Source: Hyphomonas chukchiensis (GTDB lineage: Bacteria > Pseudomonadota > Alphaproteobacteria > Caulobacterales > Hyphomonadaceae). From it: a stretch of DNA of 64,000 bases. The translations under genes were made by a program, and so were the position numbers. Numbering within the stretch: position 1 is the first letter of the stretch; each line of letters starts with the position of its first letter. The notes beneath the pieces were generated by a model that ran no database searches, was not told the DNA's origin, and worked only from the letters and a program-made list of their open reading frames with translations. Shown here one piece after another: positions 31,278-36,900 of this stretch. Location of the stretch: positions 1 to 64,000 of the forward strand of contig NZ_AWFG01000096.1 of NCBI RefSeq assembly GCF_000682695.1, written 5' to 3'.

Positions 31278-31574
31278 ATGACCGAAGAATGGTGTGTGGA
31301 TATGGAAACGCAGAACGCAAACATGACGAGCGTCAAAGGCCCGGATGGCCAGACGCTCACCCTGGCAGACCTGCCGTCCCCGGGGATCTCCCGGTGGGTG
31401 ACACGCCGCAAGGCAGAGGTTGTTGCAGCCGTTTCAGGTGGGTTGCTTTCGCGCAAGGCTGCGTGCGAACGCTACAACCTGACGGATGAGGAATATGAAG
31501 GCTGGGAGAAACTTTACTCCCGCCACGGCATCAAGGGCCTGCGCACAACGCGGCTCCAGAAGTACCGCCGCTAG
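31278..31574 (+). CDS. sciP: CtrA inhibitor SciP (DUF1153)
   Basis: SciP binds CtrA at target promoters and prevents transcription activation in G1 swarmer cells. The 98-residue protein has the core DGQTLTLADLPSPGISRWVTRRKAEVVAAVSGGLLSRKAACERYNLTDEEY, quoted here in consecutive family blocks LADLP, RWVTRRKAEVVAAV and GGLLSRKAACERYNL. This is a homeodomain-like helix-turn-helix, with the typical end GLRTTRLQKYRR. The ATG at 31278 follows GAAGAAG; a second ATG at 31305 is possible. It lies directly upstream of the fliF-fliG block, as in Caulobacter. A GANTC site lies at 31114-31118 in the 178-nt upstream gap. Confidence 0.93.
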   Translation: MTEEWCVDMETQNANMTSVKGPDGQTLTLADLPSPGISRWVTRRKAEVVAAVSGGLLSRKAACERYNLTDEEYEGWEKLYSRHGIKGLRTTRLQKYRR

Positions 31575-31598: not shown

Positions 31599-31631
31599 GC
31601 CTGCCCGTTAAACACAAATTTACGGGCAGGC
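31599..31631 (+). terminator. Hairpin after sciP
   Basis: Perfect 10-bp arms (GCCTGCCCGT/ACGGGCAGGC) enclose a 13-nt loop. There is no T-tract, so it may be a processing or attenuation element between sciP and the fliF-like gene rather than a full terminator. Confidence 0.55.
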
Positions 31632-31682: not shown

Positions 31683-32357
31683 ATGGCAAGCAGATCCGGC
31701 AAACGTAAACCCGGCGCGGGGCCCTCTTCACGGGCGCTCGCGATGGCAGCGTTTGTCATTGCTCTCGGCCTGCTCGCCTGGCGGGGCAGTACGCTGCTCA
31801 CCGCTGACCATCCGCTCCCCGCTTCAGCCACCCCGCTCGAAGCCTCCCTCATGAACCTGGTTGATCCCGTTGCCGGCCCCGGCAATGCGCGCATCAGCGT
31901 TACGACAACCGCTGCCGGCGGTCGCACCGTGCTCGTCCTGCTCGACGCCGCCGAAGCGGCCAAGGCCTCCATGATCGAAAGCCTGGTTACCACCGCCGCG
32001 CGTCTCGACGTCGCTGCCGGTGACCTGCTCGTCATCCAGACGGCCCCTTTTGCGCGCGGTGCACCCGGACGGCCCGATGCTGAGGCTTATGGCGAGCTTG
32101 CCCTCCTCGCGCTGCTCGCGGGTCTCGCCGGTTGGCTCGGCTTTGCCCCACGAACGGACTCGGAAGTCCCGGGAATGGTCAGGGAATACCCTGAAGCGCC
32201 CCCGGAAGCACCCGTGCGTCCCCTCGCAACGACCGCTGTGCGCCCCCTTCGCACCGTGCCGGTCACCAGCGATGTCGCTGAGCTGGCCCGCAAGGATCCG
32301 GCCCGCGCGGCGGATATCCTGCGTGGCTGGATGAAGAACGGGACGGATGCCGCATGA
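31683..32357 (+). CDS. fliF: Very short FliF-like MS-ring protein
   Basis: FliF normally has about 530-570 residues and forms the MS ring. This one has 224. It shows TM1 (about 18-36), then LEASLMNLVDPVAGPGNARISV (52-73, quoted as LEASLMNLVDP and GPGNARISV), which matches the start of the RBM3 ring domain. MIESLVTTAARLDVAAGDLLVIQTAPF (98-123) matches its end, TM2 spans 136-155, and ELARKDPARAADILRGWMK (200-218) is the FliG-binding tail. RBM1, RBM2 and the RBM3 beta-collar are missing. It has an AGGAGG site 5 nt before the ATG, overlaps fliG by ATGA and follows sciP, so position and coupling are those of fliF. The frame is intact, so this is not simple decay. It may be a minimal M-ring protein, or a full FliF may lie elsewhere. 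Confidence 0.72.
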   Translation: MASRSGKRKPGAGPSSRALAMAAFVIALGLLAWRGSTLLTADHPLPASATPLEASLMNLVDPVAGPGNARISVTTTAAGGRTVLVLLDAAEAAKASMIESLVTTAARLDVAAGDLLVIQTAPFARGAPGRPDAEAYGELALLALLAGLAGWLGFAPRTDSEVPGMVREYPEAPPEAPVRPLATTAVRPLRTVPVTSDVAELARKDPARAADILRGWMKNGTDAA

Positions 32358-33292
32358 GCGCGCTCGCCGTCATTCCTGCAGCAAACATTACAGCGCGCGA
32401 CGGCCTTGTCCGCTCCGCACGCCTGATGCGCGCCCTCGGTCCCGAGGCCGCCGGCATCTGGGCCGAGCTTGAGCCGGATGAAGCCCGCAAACTCACCGCC
32501 GCCATGGACGCCCTCGACGACACCATGGACGGCGAAGCAGAGGTTTCGCGCGATTTTCTCGACGCGCACCGCCGTCTCGGTCCTGCACCAAAGACTGCAG
32601 GTTCCGTCTGGTCGCGCCTGTCGGCGCTCGATACCGGCGCCCTCGCGAGCCTGTTTGCGGACGAGCATCCCCAGACGCTCGCCTTCGTGCTGTCCAGGCT
32701 ACAGGGCGACGCCTCCGCCCGTCTCCTGCGCGCCCTCAGCCCTCGTGTCGCCATTGATGCGATGCACCGCCTGCTGCACCTCGGGCCCGTTCATCCGGGT
32801 GCGTCGGCCAGCCTTGAATCGCATATCGCACAACAGATCGACGGCCTGCAGGGCAACGCACGCCAGGGCGGCCACGAACGTGTCGCCCGCATCTTCGACC
32901 GTCTCGACAGCCGCCTCGAAAAATCCTTCCTCGCTGCACTGGATACAGCAGAACCCGGCGCTGGCGAAAAAGTCCGCGCGCTCATGTTCACCTTCGATGA
33001 CCTCGCGCGTCTCGACGCCGCCGGCCTGCAGACATTGCTCGCGTCAGCTGACCGTTCCACGCTGGTTGTTGCCCTTAAAGGCGCCCGCGAAGAGACCGCC
33101 GCTGCCTTCTTCCGCAACATGACCCGCCGCGCTGGCGACCTGCTGCGCGACGAGATTTCTGCCCATGGCGCCGTGCGTCGCAGCGAAGTCGAAGCCGCCC
33201 GTCAGGCGCTGGTATCGCTGGCGCGTGACCTCATCGCCCAAGGCGACATCCGCCCCGGTGGTGGCCGGGAAGACGAGGAATTGATCGAATGA
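32354..33292 (+). CDS. fliG: Flagellar motor switch protein FliG
   Basis: FliG couples stator torque to the rotor. The 312-residue protein is slightly short but has the three domains. The N-terminal part is diverged, the middle domain has the EHPQTLAFVLSRL motif (canonical EHPQT), and the C-terminal domain begins MFTFDDLARLD. The charged torque-helix residues appear conserved: Lys in VVALKGA, Arg in NMTRRA, the acidic pair in LLRDE and Arg in GAVRRSE. It overlaps the fliF-like gene and the fliH-like gene by ATGA at both ends, which indicates tight translational coupling. Confidence 0.93.
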   Translation: MSALAVIPAANITARDGLVRSARLMRALGPEAAGIWAELEPDEARKLTAAMDALDDTMDGEAEVSRDFLDAHRRLGPAPKTAGSVWSRLSALDTGALASLFADEHPQTLAFVLSRLQGDASARLLRALSPRVAIDAMHRLLHLGPVHPGASASLESHIAQQIDGLQGNARQGGHERVARIFDRLDSRLEKSFLAALDTAEPGAGEKVRALMFTFDDLARLDAAGLQTLLASADRSTLVVALKGAREETAAAFFRNMTRRAGDLLRDEISAHGAVRRSEVEAARQALVSLARDLIAQGDIRPGGGREDEELIE

Positions 33293-33657
33293 CCCATCGT
33301 GCTGTGAAGTCCCTGCAAGCCTTTGAATTCCGGAATGATTTTACACTTCCCGCAGAGCCTGAGCCGCCGCAGCGCGAGCAGATGGACCTCTCGGCGCCCG
33401 AGCTGGCCCGCCTCCTGTCGCAAGCCCGGGCCGAAGGCCTCGCCGAGGCAACCCGCCTTGAAGCCTCCCAAACGGAAGAGCGCATGCAGGCCGTCACGCT
33501 GAAGCTCAACGAGGCCCTCGCGGATCTCGTTACGCTGGCCCGCCATATCGAGACGGGTGCGTATGAGGGCCTCGACGTTGCCAGGTCACTGAACCTCATC
33601 AATGCCACCGCCCAGCGCATCATTGACGGCCAGGGCGACCTGTTTGCGGCGCGTTAA
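33289..33657 (+). CDS. Short FliH/FlbE-like flagellar protein
   Basis: This gene sits in the flbE (fliH) position, between fliG and fliN. At 122 residues it is much shorter than FliH/FlbE proteins (about 200-230). The FEFRNDF start, the central Ala/Glu-rich helix (LARLLSQARAEGLAEATRLEA) and the following coiled coil resemble the N-terminal half of FliH. The C-terminal domain that binds the FliI ATPase is not apparent. The assignment leans on position and coiled-coil character. It overlaps fliG by ATGA. Confidence 0.65.
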   Translation: MTHRAVKSLQAFEFRNDFTLPAEPEPPQREQMDLSAPELARLLSQARAEGLAEATRLEASQTEERMQAVTLKLNEALADLVTLARHIETGAYEGLDVARSLNLINATAQRIIDGQGDLFAAR

Positions 33658-33721: not shown

Positions 33722-33985
33722 ATGCAACCTGCCAATCCCGCCCTTGAAAAGTCACTGATGGACGTGCCCGTGCGCGTCGATGTCGTGCTGGGCGAAGTGC
33801 GCATGCCGATCGAGGAACTGATGGCCCTCTCACCCGGCGAGATTGTCGCCCTTGAGCGGCGCACCAATGAAATGATCGACATTTACGTGTCCGACCGCCT
33901 GATGGCGCGTGGCCGTCTCGTGGTCGCAGATGGCCAGTTGGGCGTCACCCTGTCCGAAATCGTCGACGAACGGGCCGCCGCCTAG
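33722..33985 (+). CDS. fliN: Flagellar motor switch protein FliN
   Basis: FliN forms the outer C-ring and helps switching and export. The 87-residue protein is essentially one SpoA domain: DVPVRVDVVLGEVRMPIEELMALSPGEIVAL, then ERRTNEMIDIYVSDRLMARGRLVVADGQLGV and LSEIV, all typical (blocks quoted consecutively). It lies 64 nt after the FliH-like gene. In contrast to its neighbours it has normal length and key residues. Confidence 0.94.
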   Translation: MQPANPALEKSLMDVPVRVDVVLGEVRMPIEELMALSPGEIVALERRTNEMIDIYVSDRLMARGRLVVADGQLGVTLSEIVDERAAA

Positions 33986-34191: not shown

Positions 34192-35208
34192 ATGCGCATG
34201 AAGATGTTCGCAGCCGAGTCCTTCGAGGCCGCCAAGGCGATGATATTCGCCGAGATGGGCGCCGACGCGGTTATTCTGTCGGAGCGCGAGATTGACGGCG
34301 GCGTGGAAGTGCGCGCCGCAACCGACAAGATGGGCGGTGGCATGGTGCCCAATGAGCCCCTGTTCCTGCGCGAAGCGCGCGGAAGTGGCGGTGGTCATGG
34401 CCGTGGCATTGAAAACCCGCTGTTCAGCCGCGTTCGCGATGCCCTCCTCTGGCATGGGGCGCCACAGCGCTTCGCTGACCGCGTGGCCGCCGAAAGTGCA
34501 GGCCGCAATGGCGTCCAGTTTACCGATCCGGAAGATGCAATTGCGGAAGGCGTCTCGCGCCTTGTTGCCTGCGACCCGATCCTGCCGCGCCTTGATCGCG
34601 ATATCGTTCTCGTTGGTCCTCCCGGCCATGGCCGTACAGCAACCGCCGCAAAGCTGACCCGCCGCGCCGCCGTTGCACGTTGCGAGGTCATGCCCGTCGC
34701 AGCCGATCTTGATGGCACCGCCGGTGGCCAGCAACTTGCCGCCTATCTCGAGCTCGAGCAGGACCAGATCCGCAGTGTACAAACGCCGGACGCCCTGTTC
34801 GCGACGCTCCGTACCCTGCGCGCCCAGAACCGCCGCTGCATCATCGACATGCCTGCCATCAATCCTTTCGACGAAGACGACATGGCGAGCCTGCAGGACC
34901 TCATTTCGGTCATCCGCGCTGAGCCCGTGCTTGTCCTCTCAGCGGAAGGCCACCCTGAAGACCAGGCCGAGGCGGCCAAGTGCTATGCCCGTGCCGGTGT
35001 GAAACGGGCCATCCTCACCAAGCTTGATGTTGTCCGCCGCCGCGGTGGCTCCATCTCCGCGTTGTCGTCTGCCGGCATCGCCTTTTCGCATTTGGCCGTG
35101 ACGCCGTTTATCGGCGGCGGCCTGGTACCGGCCGCGCCGTCGCGCCTGGCCGCTCTCTTGATGGAAGACGCCCCCGGCGATGTCATCGCCATGAAAGGAG
35201 CCGCGTAG
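34192..35208 (+). CDS. flhF: FlhF-like SRP-family protein with degenerate GTPase site
   Basis: FlhF is an SRP-type GTPase that sets flagellum position. The N-terminus is typical (MKMFAAESFEAAKAMIFAEMGADAVILSEREIDGGVEV, in blocks MKMFAAESF, EMGADAVILS and IDGGVEV). The NG domain spans about 120-335. The P-loop reads GPPGHGRT (142-149), with Arg148 replacing the invariant Lys. The G2 region (DLDGTAGGQQL) lacks the usual DTYR, and G3 (IDMPAINPFD) lacks DTAG, while TKLD (276-279) is retained. Nucleotide hydrolysis is therefore doubtful; a scaffold role is inferred. It is followed 4 nt later by flhG. Confidence 0.82.
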   Translation: MRMKMFAAESFEAAKAMIFAEMGADAVILSEREIDGGVEVRAATDKMGGGMVPNEPLFLREARGSGGGHGRGIENPLFSRVRDALLWHGAPQRFADRVAAESAGRNGVQFTDPEDAIAEGVSRLVACDPILPRLDRDIVLVGPPGHGRTATAAKLTRRAAVARCEVMPVAADLDGTAGGQQLAAYLELEQDQIRSVQTPDALFATLRTLRAQNRRCIIDMPAINPFDEDDMASLQDLISVIRAEPVLVLSAEGHPEDQAEAAKCYARAGVKRAILTKLDVVRRRGGSISALSSAGIAFSHLAVTPFIGGGLVPAAPSRLAALLMEDAPGDVIAMKGAA

Positions 35209-35212
35209 CCCT

Positions 35213-36052
35213 ATGAGTTTCATGCTTCGAAAATCCCAGGATCGGCCGCAAGCGCGACCGACCCCACGCGTGGCACCCGCCTCGATCATCGCTGTTGCCA
35301 GTGGCAAGGGCGGTGTCGGCAAAACCTTCATGGCCATCACGCTCGCCTCGGCCTTTGCCCAGGCTGGCAAGCGAACATTGCTGGTGGATGGCGACCTTGG
35401 CCTCGCCAATGTCGACGTTCAGCTTGGCATCGCACCTGAGACCGATCTGGCCGCCGTGATTGCTGGCTGGGTTGAACTCGACGACGCGGTGACCCCGGTT
35501 GATGGCGGTGCGGCAGGCGGCGGCTTTGATGTGCTGCCGGGCCGATCAGGCTCAGGCGCGCTCGCCGAACTGCCACCGGAGGAAGTTGCGCGTCTCGCTG
35601 CGGGTCTCTCGGCGCTTGCCCTGCAATATGATCAGGTCGTGCTCGACCTTGGTGCCGGTATCGAGGCCAACTGCATGCGTCTCGCCCGCGCGGCCGACAA
35701 GGCGTTGATGGTTATCACTGACGAGCCAACATCGATGACGGACGCTTATGCGTTCATCAAGGTGCTGCGTGGCTACGCACCAAATGTTGAGCCCGTGATC
35801 TGCATTAACCAGGCCGATACACGGGCCGCTGGCCAGCGCACGTATGAAGCCATTGCGCGAGCCTGTCAGACTTTCTTGGGATTCCGTCCACACCTCGCCG
35901 GTATCGTTATGCGCGATCCGAAGGTGCGTGATGCCATCCGTTGCCAGAAGACGCTGATCTCTACTGACCAGCAAGCACAGCCGATCCAGGATGCGATCGC
36001 CATCTCCCAGATGCTGATAGGCAATGCCCCAGCGGCAGAGCTTGGCTATTAA
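35213..36052 (+). CDS. flhG: FlhG/MinD-like ATPase
   Basis: FlhG (YlxH) is a MinD/ParA-type ATPase that controls flagellar number together with FlhF. The 279-residue protein has the deviant Walker A motif SGKGGVGKT with both Lys residues, LLVDGDLGLANVDVQLG (Walker A') and VVLDLGAG (Walker B-like). DEPTSMTDAYAFIKVL is a family motif. There is no clear C-terminal amphipathic membrane-targeting helix. It is coupled to flhF and lies 134 nt upstream of ctrA. Confidence 0.92.
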   Translation: MSFMLRKSQDRPQARPTPRVAPASIIAVASGKGGVGKTFMAITLASAFAQAGKRTLLVDGDLGLANVDVQLGIAPETDLAAVIAGWVELDDAVTPVDGGAAGGGFDVLPGRSGSGALAELPPEEVARLAAGLSALALQYDQVVLDLGAGIEANCMRLARAADKALMVITDEPTSMTDAYAFIKVLRGYAPNVEPVICINQADTRAAGQRTYEAIARACQTFLGFRPHLAGIVMRDPKVRDAIRCQKTLISTDQQAQPIQDAIAISQMLIGNAPAAELGY

Positions 36053-36186: not shown

Positions 36187-36900
36187 ATGCGCGTCCTATT
36201 AATTGAAGACGATAGCGCCGTAGCGCGTTCTATCGAGCTGATGTTGAAGGCTGCTGGCTTCAACATCTACACCACCGACCTTGGTGAAGAAGGTGTCGAT
36301 CTCGGCAAAGTCTACGAATACGACATGATCGTTCTCGACCTGTCGCTGCCGGATATTTCCGGCTACGAAGTGTTGAAACAGCTCCGTATGGGCCGTGTGA
36401 ACACGCCTGTCATGATCCTCTCGGGTAACCCTGACATCGAAGCAAAGGTGAAAACGCTTGGCTACGGCGCTGACGACTATCTCACCAAGCCATTCAACAA
36501 GGATGAGCTGATTGCCCGTATCACGGCGATCGTGCGTCGCTCCAAGGGTCACGCTGAAAGCGTCATCCGCACCGGCGAAATCCTGGTCAATCTTGATGCC
36601 AAGACGGTCGAAGTGGATGACGAGCGCGTCCACCTGACCGGCAAGGAATACCAGATGTTCGAGCTGCTTTCCCTGCGCAAGGGCACGACGCTCACCAAGG
36701 AAATGTTCCTCAACCACCTTTATGGCGGCATGGACGAGCCTGAGCTGAAGATCATCGACGTGTTCATCTGTAAGCTCCGCAAGAAGCTGCAGCAGGCCAC
36801 TGGTGGCCAGCATTATATCGAAACCGTCTGGGGCCGTGGCTATGTGCTGCGCGATCCGCGCCCGAGCTCACGTTCCAACGAGGTTGAAGAGGCGGCCTGA
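36187..36900 (+). CDS. ctrA: Cell-cycle response regulator CtrA
   Basis: CtrA is the OmpR-type master regulator of the Caulobacterales cell cycle and of flagellar and other polar genes. The 237-residue protein has a receiver domain with phospho-acceptor D51 in [11 protein letters not shown] and Lys in [11 protein letters not shown]. The winged-helix domain contains [17 protein letters not shown] and [14 protein letters not shown]. The C-terminus ends in EVEEAA; a terminal Ala-Ala is the ClpXP degradation signal in Caulobacter. GGGAGACGAG precedes the ATG. Its inhibitor SciP is encoded 4.6 kb upstream. Confidence 0.97.

Follow-up and report, generated by a model that had tools for sequence, protein, structure and literature searches.

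A short FliF within what appears to be a stripped-down flagellar motor of Hyphomonas and Henriciella

Background

Flagellar motors are usually viewed as a single machine whose rotor, export gate and axle belong together. In Escherichia coli, MotA residues Arg90 and Glu98 are described as pairing with FliG Asp288-289 and Arg281, respectively (PMC12505986 and PMC7564593, in the text available from each). The motor has also been associated with surface attachment: according to the available text of one report, the 'mechanical' adhesion pathway of Caulobacter, which was seen in late assembly mutants, depends on the rotor of the inner membrane and on a stator that conducts protons (PMC7885107). In the Caulobacteraceae, a 2025 study reports, in the part available, four genomes without any flagellar motility genes (PMC12700997).

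The window analysed here, a stretch of 64,000 nucleotides from Hyphomonas chukchiensis, carries in the usual fliF position a gene for a protein of only 224 residues. An earlier note, made from the sequence of the window alone, had read this gene as a working, shortened FliF, being either a minimal M-ring or the partner of a second, full FliF. In this paper, we report on the anatomy, spread and genomic company of the short FliF and on what the set of genes to which it belongs may do. No published description of such a rotor-stator module was found in the open-licence literature, including the available part of PMC13023049. A hat-like structure that is also present in H. neptunium was considered and not identified with the module, as FliF was ruled out as its periplasmic part in H. 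pylori (PMC9380563, available text).

Methods

The family search covered 105 genomes, comprising clade B (77 genomes; g1, g14, g15 and g21), clade A (27 genomes; g16, g17, g19, g20 and g22) and one genome apart (g18). A wider scan was carried out with the alignment of the clade-B FliG proteins, using one genome per species, and the best 80 loci were taken. FliG residue numbers were transferred by alignment to the Salmonella protein. CtrA-type boxes were searched for as TTAA-N7-TTAA with at most one mismatch in the 250 nt upstream of a gene, and the expected counts were taken from mononucleotide shuffles. Genomes are called flagellum-less here if they gave no FliF, FlhA or flagellar-type MotA/MotB matches, a criterion that covers these proteins only.

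Results

Anatomy of the short FliF

The locus and its neighbours in the window comprise the following features.

31278..31574, forward strand: sciP (CtrA inhibitor), left neighbour, also in the sister genera (NF051866, 126.8 bits, cut-off 100; conserved gene order)
31608..31622, forward strand: CtrA-type box TTAA-N7-TTTA, TTAAACACAAATTTA, 75 nt upstream of short fliF
31683..32357, forward strand: short FliF, 224 aa, with TM1, RBM3 core, TM2 and a tail of the FliG-binding type (alignment, profiles, AlphaFold2, Foldseek)
32354..33292, forward strand: module FliG, 312 aa, with a shortened N domain and the torque residues kept (Pfam profiles, alignment)
33289..33657, forward strand: FliH-like half protein, 122 aa (weak, NF004691 E 0.001; conserved position)
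33722..33985, forward strand: FliN, 87 aa (FliMN_C 78.0 bits, cut-off 23.8)
34192..35208, forward strand: FlhF-like SRP GTPase, P-loop GHGRT (TIGR03499 70.7 bits, below the cut-off of 174)
35213..36052, forward strand: FlhG/MinD-like ATPase (NCBIfam MinD-family model below cut-off, Pfam CbiA above; adjoins FlhF wherever present)
36187..36900, forward strand: ctrA, right neighbour of the locus (NF045991 408.8 bits, cut-off 350)

The short fliF frame runs from an ATG at 31683 to a stop at 32357, with AGGAGG 5 nt upstream of the start, and its stop shares the ATGA at 32354-32357 with the start of fliG. The clean frame of 224 codons, the strong ribosome-binding site and the fliF position between sciP and an overlapping fliG were all claimed in the earlier note, and the coordinates and the SciP and FliG profiles agree with that description. 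The window FliG scored 119.8 bits with FliG_C, 56.1 with FliG_M and 38.6 with FliG_N, the last over part of the profile. Residues 7-91 of the FliH-like protein align to positions 4-90 of the 205 in NF004691; the protein resembles the first half of FliH, and many of its relatives carry a GQGDLF-like motif near the C-terminus.

Aligned with full FliFs, the short protein retains TM1, the start and end of RBM3, TM2 and the C-terminal tail. RBM1 and RBM2 (PF01514) were absent both in the profile searches and in the alignment, and the long beta-collar insertion of RBM3 was missing from the alignment and from the AlphaFold2 model. The anatomy first proposed (TM1, TM2 and tail present, RBM1 and RBM2 gone) therefore stood, except that RBM3 had been thought to be mostly missing; its core is intact and it is the beta-collar that has been lost. 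Similarity to the Pfam FliF profiles depended on how the search was made. With the single sequence, YscJ_FliF_C (PF08345) gave 14.2 bits in a Pfam scan, below the curated cut-off of 23.8, and the protein was missing from the host-genome match lists of both FliF profiles, but a profile built from 25 short FliFs matched one built from nine full FliFs of sister genera with 94.7% probability (E 5.6e-8), across the second half of RBM3 and TM2.

The AlphaFold2 model had a mean pLDDT of 74.9 and a pTM of 0.46. Residues 51-121 form an alpha-beta-beta-alpha-beta arrangement, which is the RBM fold, with block pLDDT values of about 88-95 for most of this stretch. Foldseek placed ring chains of Salmonella FliF at ranks 1-3 (E 3e-3 to 6e-3, probability 1.00). 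The fold match is modest by itself, since none of the 856 matches had an E value below 1e-3 and a ribosomal KH domain stood at rank 4. An RBM3 fold between two transmembrane helices is thus present, with a best fold-match E value of 3e-3, and the tail with an invariant tryptophan, a putative FliG-binding segment, was aligned in all 25 short FliFs.

Distribution and selection

The same short form, which the earlier note had suggested looking for in relatives, was matched in 36 of 37 genomes of the genus, that of the window included, and the sole miss was a genome of 74% completeness. In other families of the order, two of 24 genomes gave weak matches (E 0.008). Among the best 80 loci of the wider scan, all 45 with a FliG identity of at least 40% had a short frame of 213-236 aa upstream; these loci are titled Hyphomonas, Henriciella or Hyphomonadaceae, or bear broader or odd labels, and named strains of Hyphomonas and Henriciella are among them. 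A longer upstream frame was found in 28 of the other 35 (27 of 537-594 aa and one of 303 aa), and none was found in the remaining seven, in some for want of upstream sequence. Four MAG records with Hyphomonas-like loci (L184, L186, L187 and L190) are titled Acidobacteria or Sulfopaludibacter and are probably mislabelled. Near its linker, the short fliF of genome G002 (C1:96386-97056) is broken into two frames. That of L223 (H. oceanitis SCH89), which is one of the 45 loci, has a frame-shifted end; from their positions, G002 and L223 seem to be one and the same genome.

The dN/dS ratio of the short FliF was 0.10-0.37 over ten pairs. For FliG it was 0.03-0.17 (nine computable pairs of ten) and for FliN 0.01-0.12 (seven pairs), while FliM', the divergent FliM described below, offered a single, saturated pair. 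Between two flagellum-less genomes the values were 0.27 for the short FliF, 0.16 for FliG, 0.12 for FliN, 0.12 for MotA2 and 0.22 for MotB2. A local sequencing error or decay as the cause of the short FliF is disfavoured by the matches across the genus, the dN/dS values and the consistently short frames among the best 80 loci. Together with the CtrA-type boxes described below, these results bear out the earlier view of a working shortened protein.

History of the locus in the family

The nine clade-A loci that were read continue after sciP with a full FliF (548-604 aa), a FliG (352-375 aa) and FliN, and FlhF stands several kb further on; FlhA lies in the gap before FlhF in the three clade-A genomes compared (G103, G115 and G118). 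The 30 clade-B loci read have the order sciP, short FliF, FliG (301-321 aa), FliH' and FliN, and FlhF-FlhG follow in 21 of them, some of the other nine stretches ending early. Short FliFs measured 213-245 aa in the clade-B loci where blastp matched, compared with 503-604 aa for full FliFs. Three clade-B loci without a blastp match held frames of 214 and 217 aa and, in L089 (G091), one of 126 aa from which the RBM3 part is absent. Neither FlhA nor a full FliF accompanying the short-FliF set was found by the family FliF and FlhA searches or in the clade-B loci read. The clade-B FliGs form one clade with a support of 100/100 and a long stem (1.72).

The FlhF-like protein has GHGRT in place of the usual GKT P-loop in 21 of 21 clade-B sequences examined, and GKT was kept in eight of nine clade-A matches. 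Because of this Lys-to-Arg change, in a protein that is otherwise strongly conserved, the clade-B FlhF may be a GTPase without hydrolysis.

Additional FliF matches in other genomes of the family, with frames of 374-486 aa, were seen at G103:C1:19835, G105:C11:1892907, G122:C32:16467 and G123:C319:3592, in G103, G105 and G122 as second matches, and these perhaps represent another flagellar type.

FliM', MotA2 and MotB2

Three further proteins are unlinked to the short-fliF locus, and their membership of the short-FliF set is proposed from co-occurrence. The FliM' of the host (353 aa, contig C1) is divergent, and by sequence its C-terminal FliMN_C domain alone passed the cut-off. Its model had a mean pLDDT of 72, with block means of 84-95 over residues 101-250; in Foldseek, ranks 1-7 were taken by C-ring entries (best E 1.8e-12) and ranks 10-12 by structures of the FliM middle domain (E about 2e-8), so that the fold search points to a CheC-like middle domain. 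An EIxxLLRP motif in the N-terminal segment is conserved in ten aligned FliM' sequences. FliM' was matched in 76 of the 77 clade-B genomes (all but G029) and in the g18 genome, although in G061 the match was only E 7e-6 over a 159-aa frame and in G073 the identity was 32%. The g18 genome (G102; loci L088, L163 and L180) combines FliM', MotA2 and MotB2 of the module type with a flagellum of the type found on contig C30 of the host, and its sole FliG match is of the C30 type (E 3.8e-6).

A second MotA and a second MotB of the host lie on contigs C1 and C2. Among the 65 clade-B genomes with signs of a second flagellum, 64 had two MotA (G097 had one) and all had at least two MotB, compared with one MotA in each clade-A genome with a match and one MotB in each except G124, which had two. 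The MotA2 of the host lies above the equivalog cut-off for MotA (304.7 against 303.8 bits) and that of G017 falls just below it (296.8). In nine MotA2 proteins Glu98 and the two channel helices are kept and position 90 is R, K or Q; eleven MotB2 proteins keep the channel Asp and the OmpA-type domain, with a shorter linker. Lys264 and a basic residue at 297, positions which we take to be ones that matter (K264 and R297), were present in all 19 clade-B FliGs aligned, as were Arg281 and an acidic residue at 289; position 288 was acidic in 12, and the EHPQ motif was altered in several. In the two FliGs of the C30 type, position 264 is Q or T and position 297 is S or A. FliG, MotA2 and MotB2 all sit on long stems, and contacts may therefore have changed.

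The full FliF and second flagellum of the host

A genome-wide search for a full-length fliF, as the earlier note had advised, returned one such protein (506 aa) in the host genome, which is 99.96% complete. It lies on contig C30, where a flagellar cluster apart from the short-fliF locus spans about 33 kb and has its own FliG, FliN, FliM-like protein (FliMN_C 30 bits), FliP, FlhA, MotA and MotB, as well as rod and hook proteins recognised by Pfam and further flagellar genes, among them a flagellin that was read by eye. The order fliF-fliH-fliN-fliP opposite motB and flg genes is similar to that described for the fla1 cluster of the Rhodobacterales in the available text of PMC12363192; the second flagellum may have been gained by transfer. 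In the FliG tree, the C30-type FliG stands far from the clade-B FliGs. The proposal that the short FliF partners a full FliF fared poorly, as the full protein belongs to this separate cluster with its own rotor and stator genes and as a short FliF was read in eight genomes without any full FliF match (G017, G021, G062, G063, G081, G086, G089 and G112). The minimal M-ring was the better of the two options.

Flagellum-less genomes of clade B

Neither a full FliF nor FlhA was matched in 13 of the 105 family genomes, all of clade B. One of these (G083) keeps a flagellar-type MotA and MotB and was set aside, leaving 12 flagellum-less genomes; G001 and G128, with no FliF match but with FlhA, also fall outside the count. 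Completeness of the 12 is 80-100% (99-100% in G017, G081 and G089), and the five that correspond to named records (G017, G021, G081, G086 and G089) are all MAGs. All four of FliG, FliM', MotA2 and MotB2 are kept in seven (G017, G021, G081, G086, G089, G062 and G063) and three of the four in another three, G091 and G112 having no MotB match and G092 no FliG match. In the last two, G061 and G073, none of FliG, MotA and MotB was matched, and the set is reduced to at most a diverged FliM' match. The single MotA of ten flagellum-less genomes matched at E 1.4e-25 to 8.7e-18, the best MotA elsewhere being at 5e-30 or below, and the single MotB of eight at 8.7e-15 to 8.2e-11, the best elsewhere being at 2e-19 or below.

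Nine flagellum-less loci were read. The short FliF measures 213-237 aa in eight and 126 aa in G091, FliN is present in all nine, and FlhF/FlhG are present in four. In a search for the empty site, a single protein from the flank of the G072 flagellar cluster was compared with nine genomes; apart from G072 itself, it had matches only in G073, at 33-35% identity.

CtrA-type boxes

The box at 31608-31622 is the sole exact match to TTAA-N7-TTTA in the window, where 0.08 were expected. Across relatives, a CtrA-type box was found upstream of short fliF in 20 of 20 regions (0.5 expected; in 16 of them at a distance of 71-78 nt from the start), upstream of fliM' in nine of nine (0.5 expected) and upstream of clade-A fliF in seven of eight, the expected range over all regions being 0.5-0.6; the related sequences mean that these regions are not independent. 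Boxes preceded motA2 in two of eight cases and motB2 in none of eight. The pattern suggests that the rotor genes are under CtrA cell-cycle control.

Discussion

The short FliF is real and appears to belong to a stripped-down flagellar motor, made up of rotor and stator, of Hyphomonas and Henriciella. This motor seems to have been retained alongside a second flagellum and, in certain genomes, also once that flagellum had been lost, so that a rotary motor may have been put to a use other than swimming. The earlier interpretation as a whole was partly supported. We consider that the short FliF probably makes up the membrane ring in a rotor-stator machine which is independent of a flagellum and derives from the ancestral flagellar motor of the lineage. 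The protein would form its ring through the RBM3 core and its tail would bear FliG, FliM' and FliN as a C-ring, with MotA2/MotB2 stators, anchored to the peptidoglycan, docking on FliG and driving its rotation by the proton gradient. With no RBM1, RBM2 or collar to house an export gate or rod, nothing would be exported and no axle turned. Swimming, where present, would be the task of the separate second flagellum, and the rotor genes would have remained under CtrA cell-cycle control while the ancestral motor, freed from swimming, was trimmed to ring, switch complex and stator and lost the parts that hold export gate and rod.

With moderate confidence we go further and read the module as a free-standing, proton-driven rotary machine (RBM3 ring, C-ring and MotAB) with no axle, export gate or appendage, and with a lineage-wide, cell-cycle-controlled and flagellum-independent task in sensing or envelope work. 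Among the possible outputs, the sensing of load or surface contact, relayed as a second-messenger signal, seems the most likely by analogy, although this is a tentative choice; it is our leading guess because the stator-dependent adhesion of Caulobacter, which is observed in cells blocked at later assembly steps, requires both proton flow and the rotor of the inner membrane.

Other explanations share part of this evidence. The module could serve the second flagellum, with short FliF/FliG and FlhF/FlhG marking the pole or with MotA2B2 and a second C-ring adding to its motor. It would fit that FlhF/FlhG accompany the short FliF in 21 of the 30 clade-B loci read and that 65 of 77 clade-B genomes show signs of a second flagellum. 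We regard such service as unlikely, given that the second flagellum brings its own FliG, FliN, FliM-like protein, MotA and MotB, that the two FliGs are very distant, and that the module persists in genomes without FliF or FlhA matches, where FlhF/FlhG remain in four of nine loci. It is very improbable that the module is the decaying remnant of a replaced ancestral flagellum. The clade-B locus does lack the FlhA that clade A has there, its FliH is halved, FliG, MotA and MotB are gone from G061 and G073, the FliF of G091 has shrunk to 126 aa and the short fliF of G002 is in two frames; yet dN/dS does not exceed 0.37 in any computable pair, 45 of 45 loci among the best 80 keep a frame of 213-236 aa, and the torque residues and CtrA-type boxes are kept.

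Two further rivals leave most of the proposed module in place and depart from our reading in its output. A rotor and stator that drive gliding or other movement instead of sensing would account for a torque interface and proton channel that look largely intact in sequence, and the MotAB homologue AglRS serves gliding elsewhere (PMC12505986, available text), but the periplasmic part of the short FliF is one small domain and no movement partners were noticed in the loci read, which makes a surface-motility device doubtful. A non-rotating polar or cell-cycle scaffold, in which the torque residues persist for assembly only, would suit a locus that lies between sciP and ctrA with FlhF/FlhG and has CtrA-type boxes before short fliF and fliM'; the retention of MotA2 and MotB2 together, with intact channel residues, argues against it and we think it improbable. 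The flagellum-independent rotor-stator machine remains our preferred reading.

In these genomes, it seems, rotor and stator have been detached from the rest of the flagellum and shortened where export and rod are served, yet kept, in contrast to the four Caulobacteraceae genomes reported to be devoid of flagellar motility genes. If this is true, the module would show what use a MotAB-FliG motor has on its own, provide structural studies with a naturally minimal M-ring and bear on the evolutionary reuse of motors.

Among known systems, the mechanical adhesion pathway of Caulobacter differs in that its rotor and stator parts belong to the flagellum itself. The module shares with the flagellar switch complex and MotAB homologues of FliG, FliM, FliN, MotA and MotB, with torque and channel residues largely kept, but it occurs without FlhA or a full FliF in seven complete and three partial cases, and has a shortened FliG N domain, a divergent FliM' and a shorter MotB2 linker. 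With FliF of the MS-ring, the short FliF has in common TM1, the RBM3 core, TM2, the Trp-bearing C-terminal tail and the adjacency to fliG; it differs in having no RBM1, RBM2 or beta-collar and in its length, 213-245 aa (126 in one case) against 503-604 aa.
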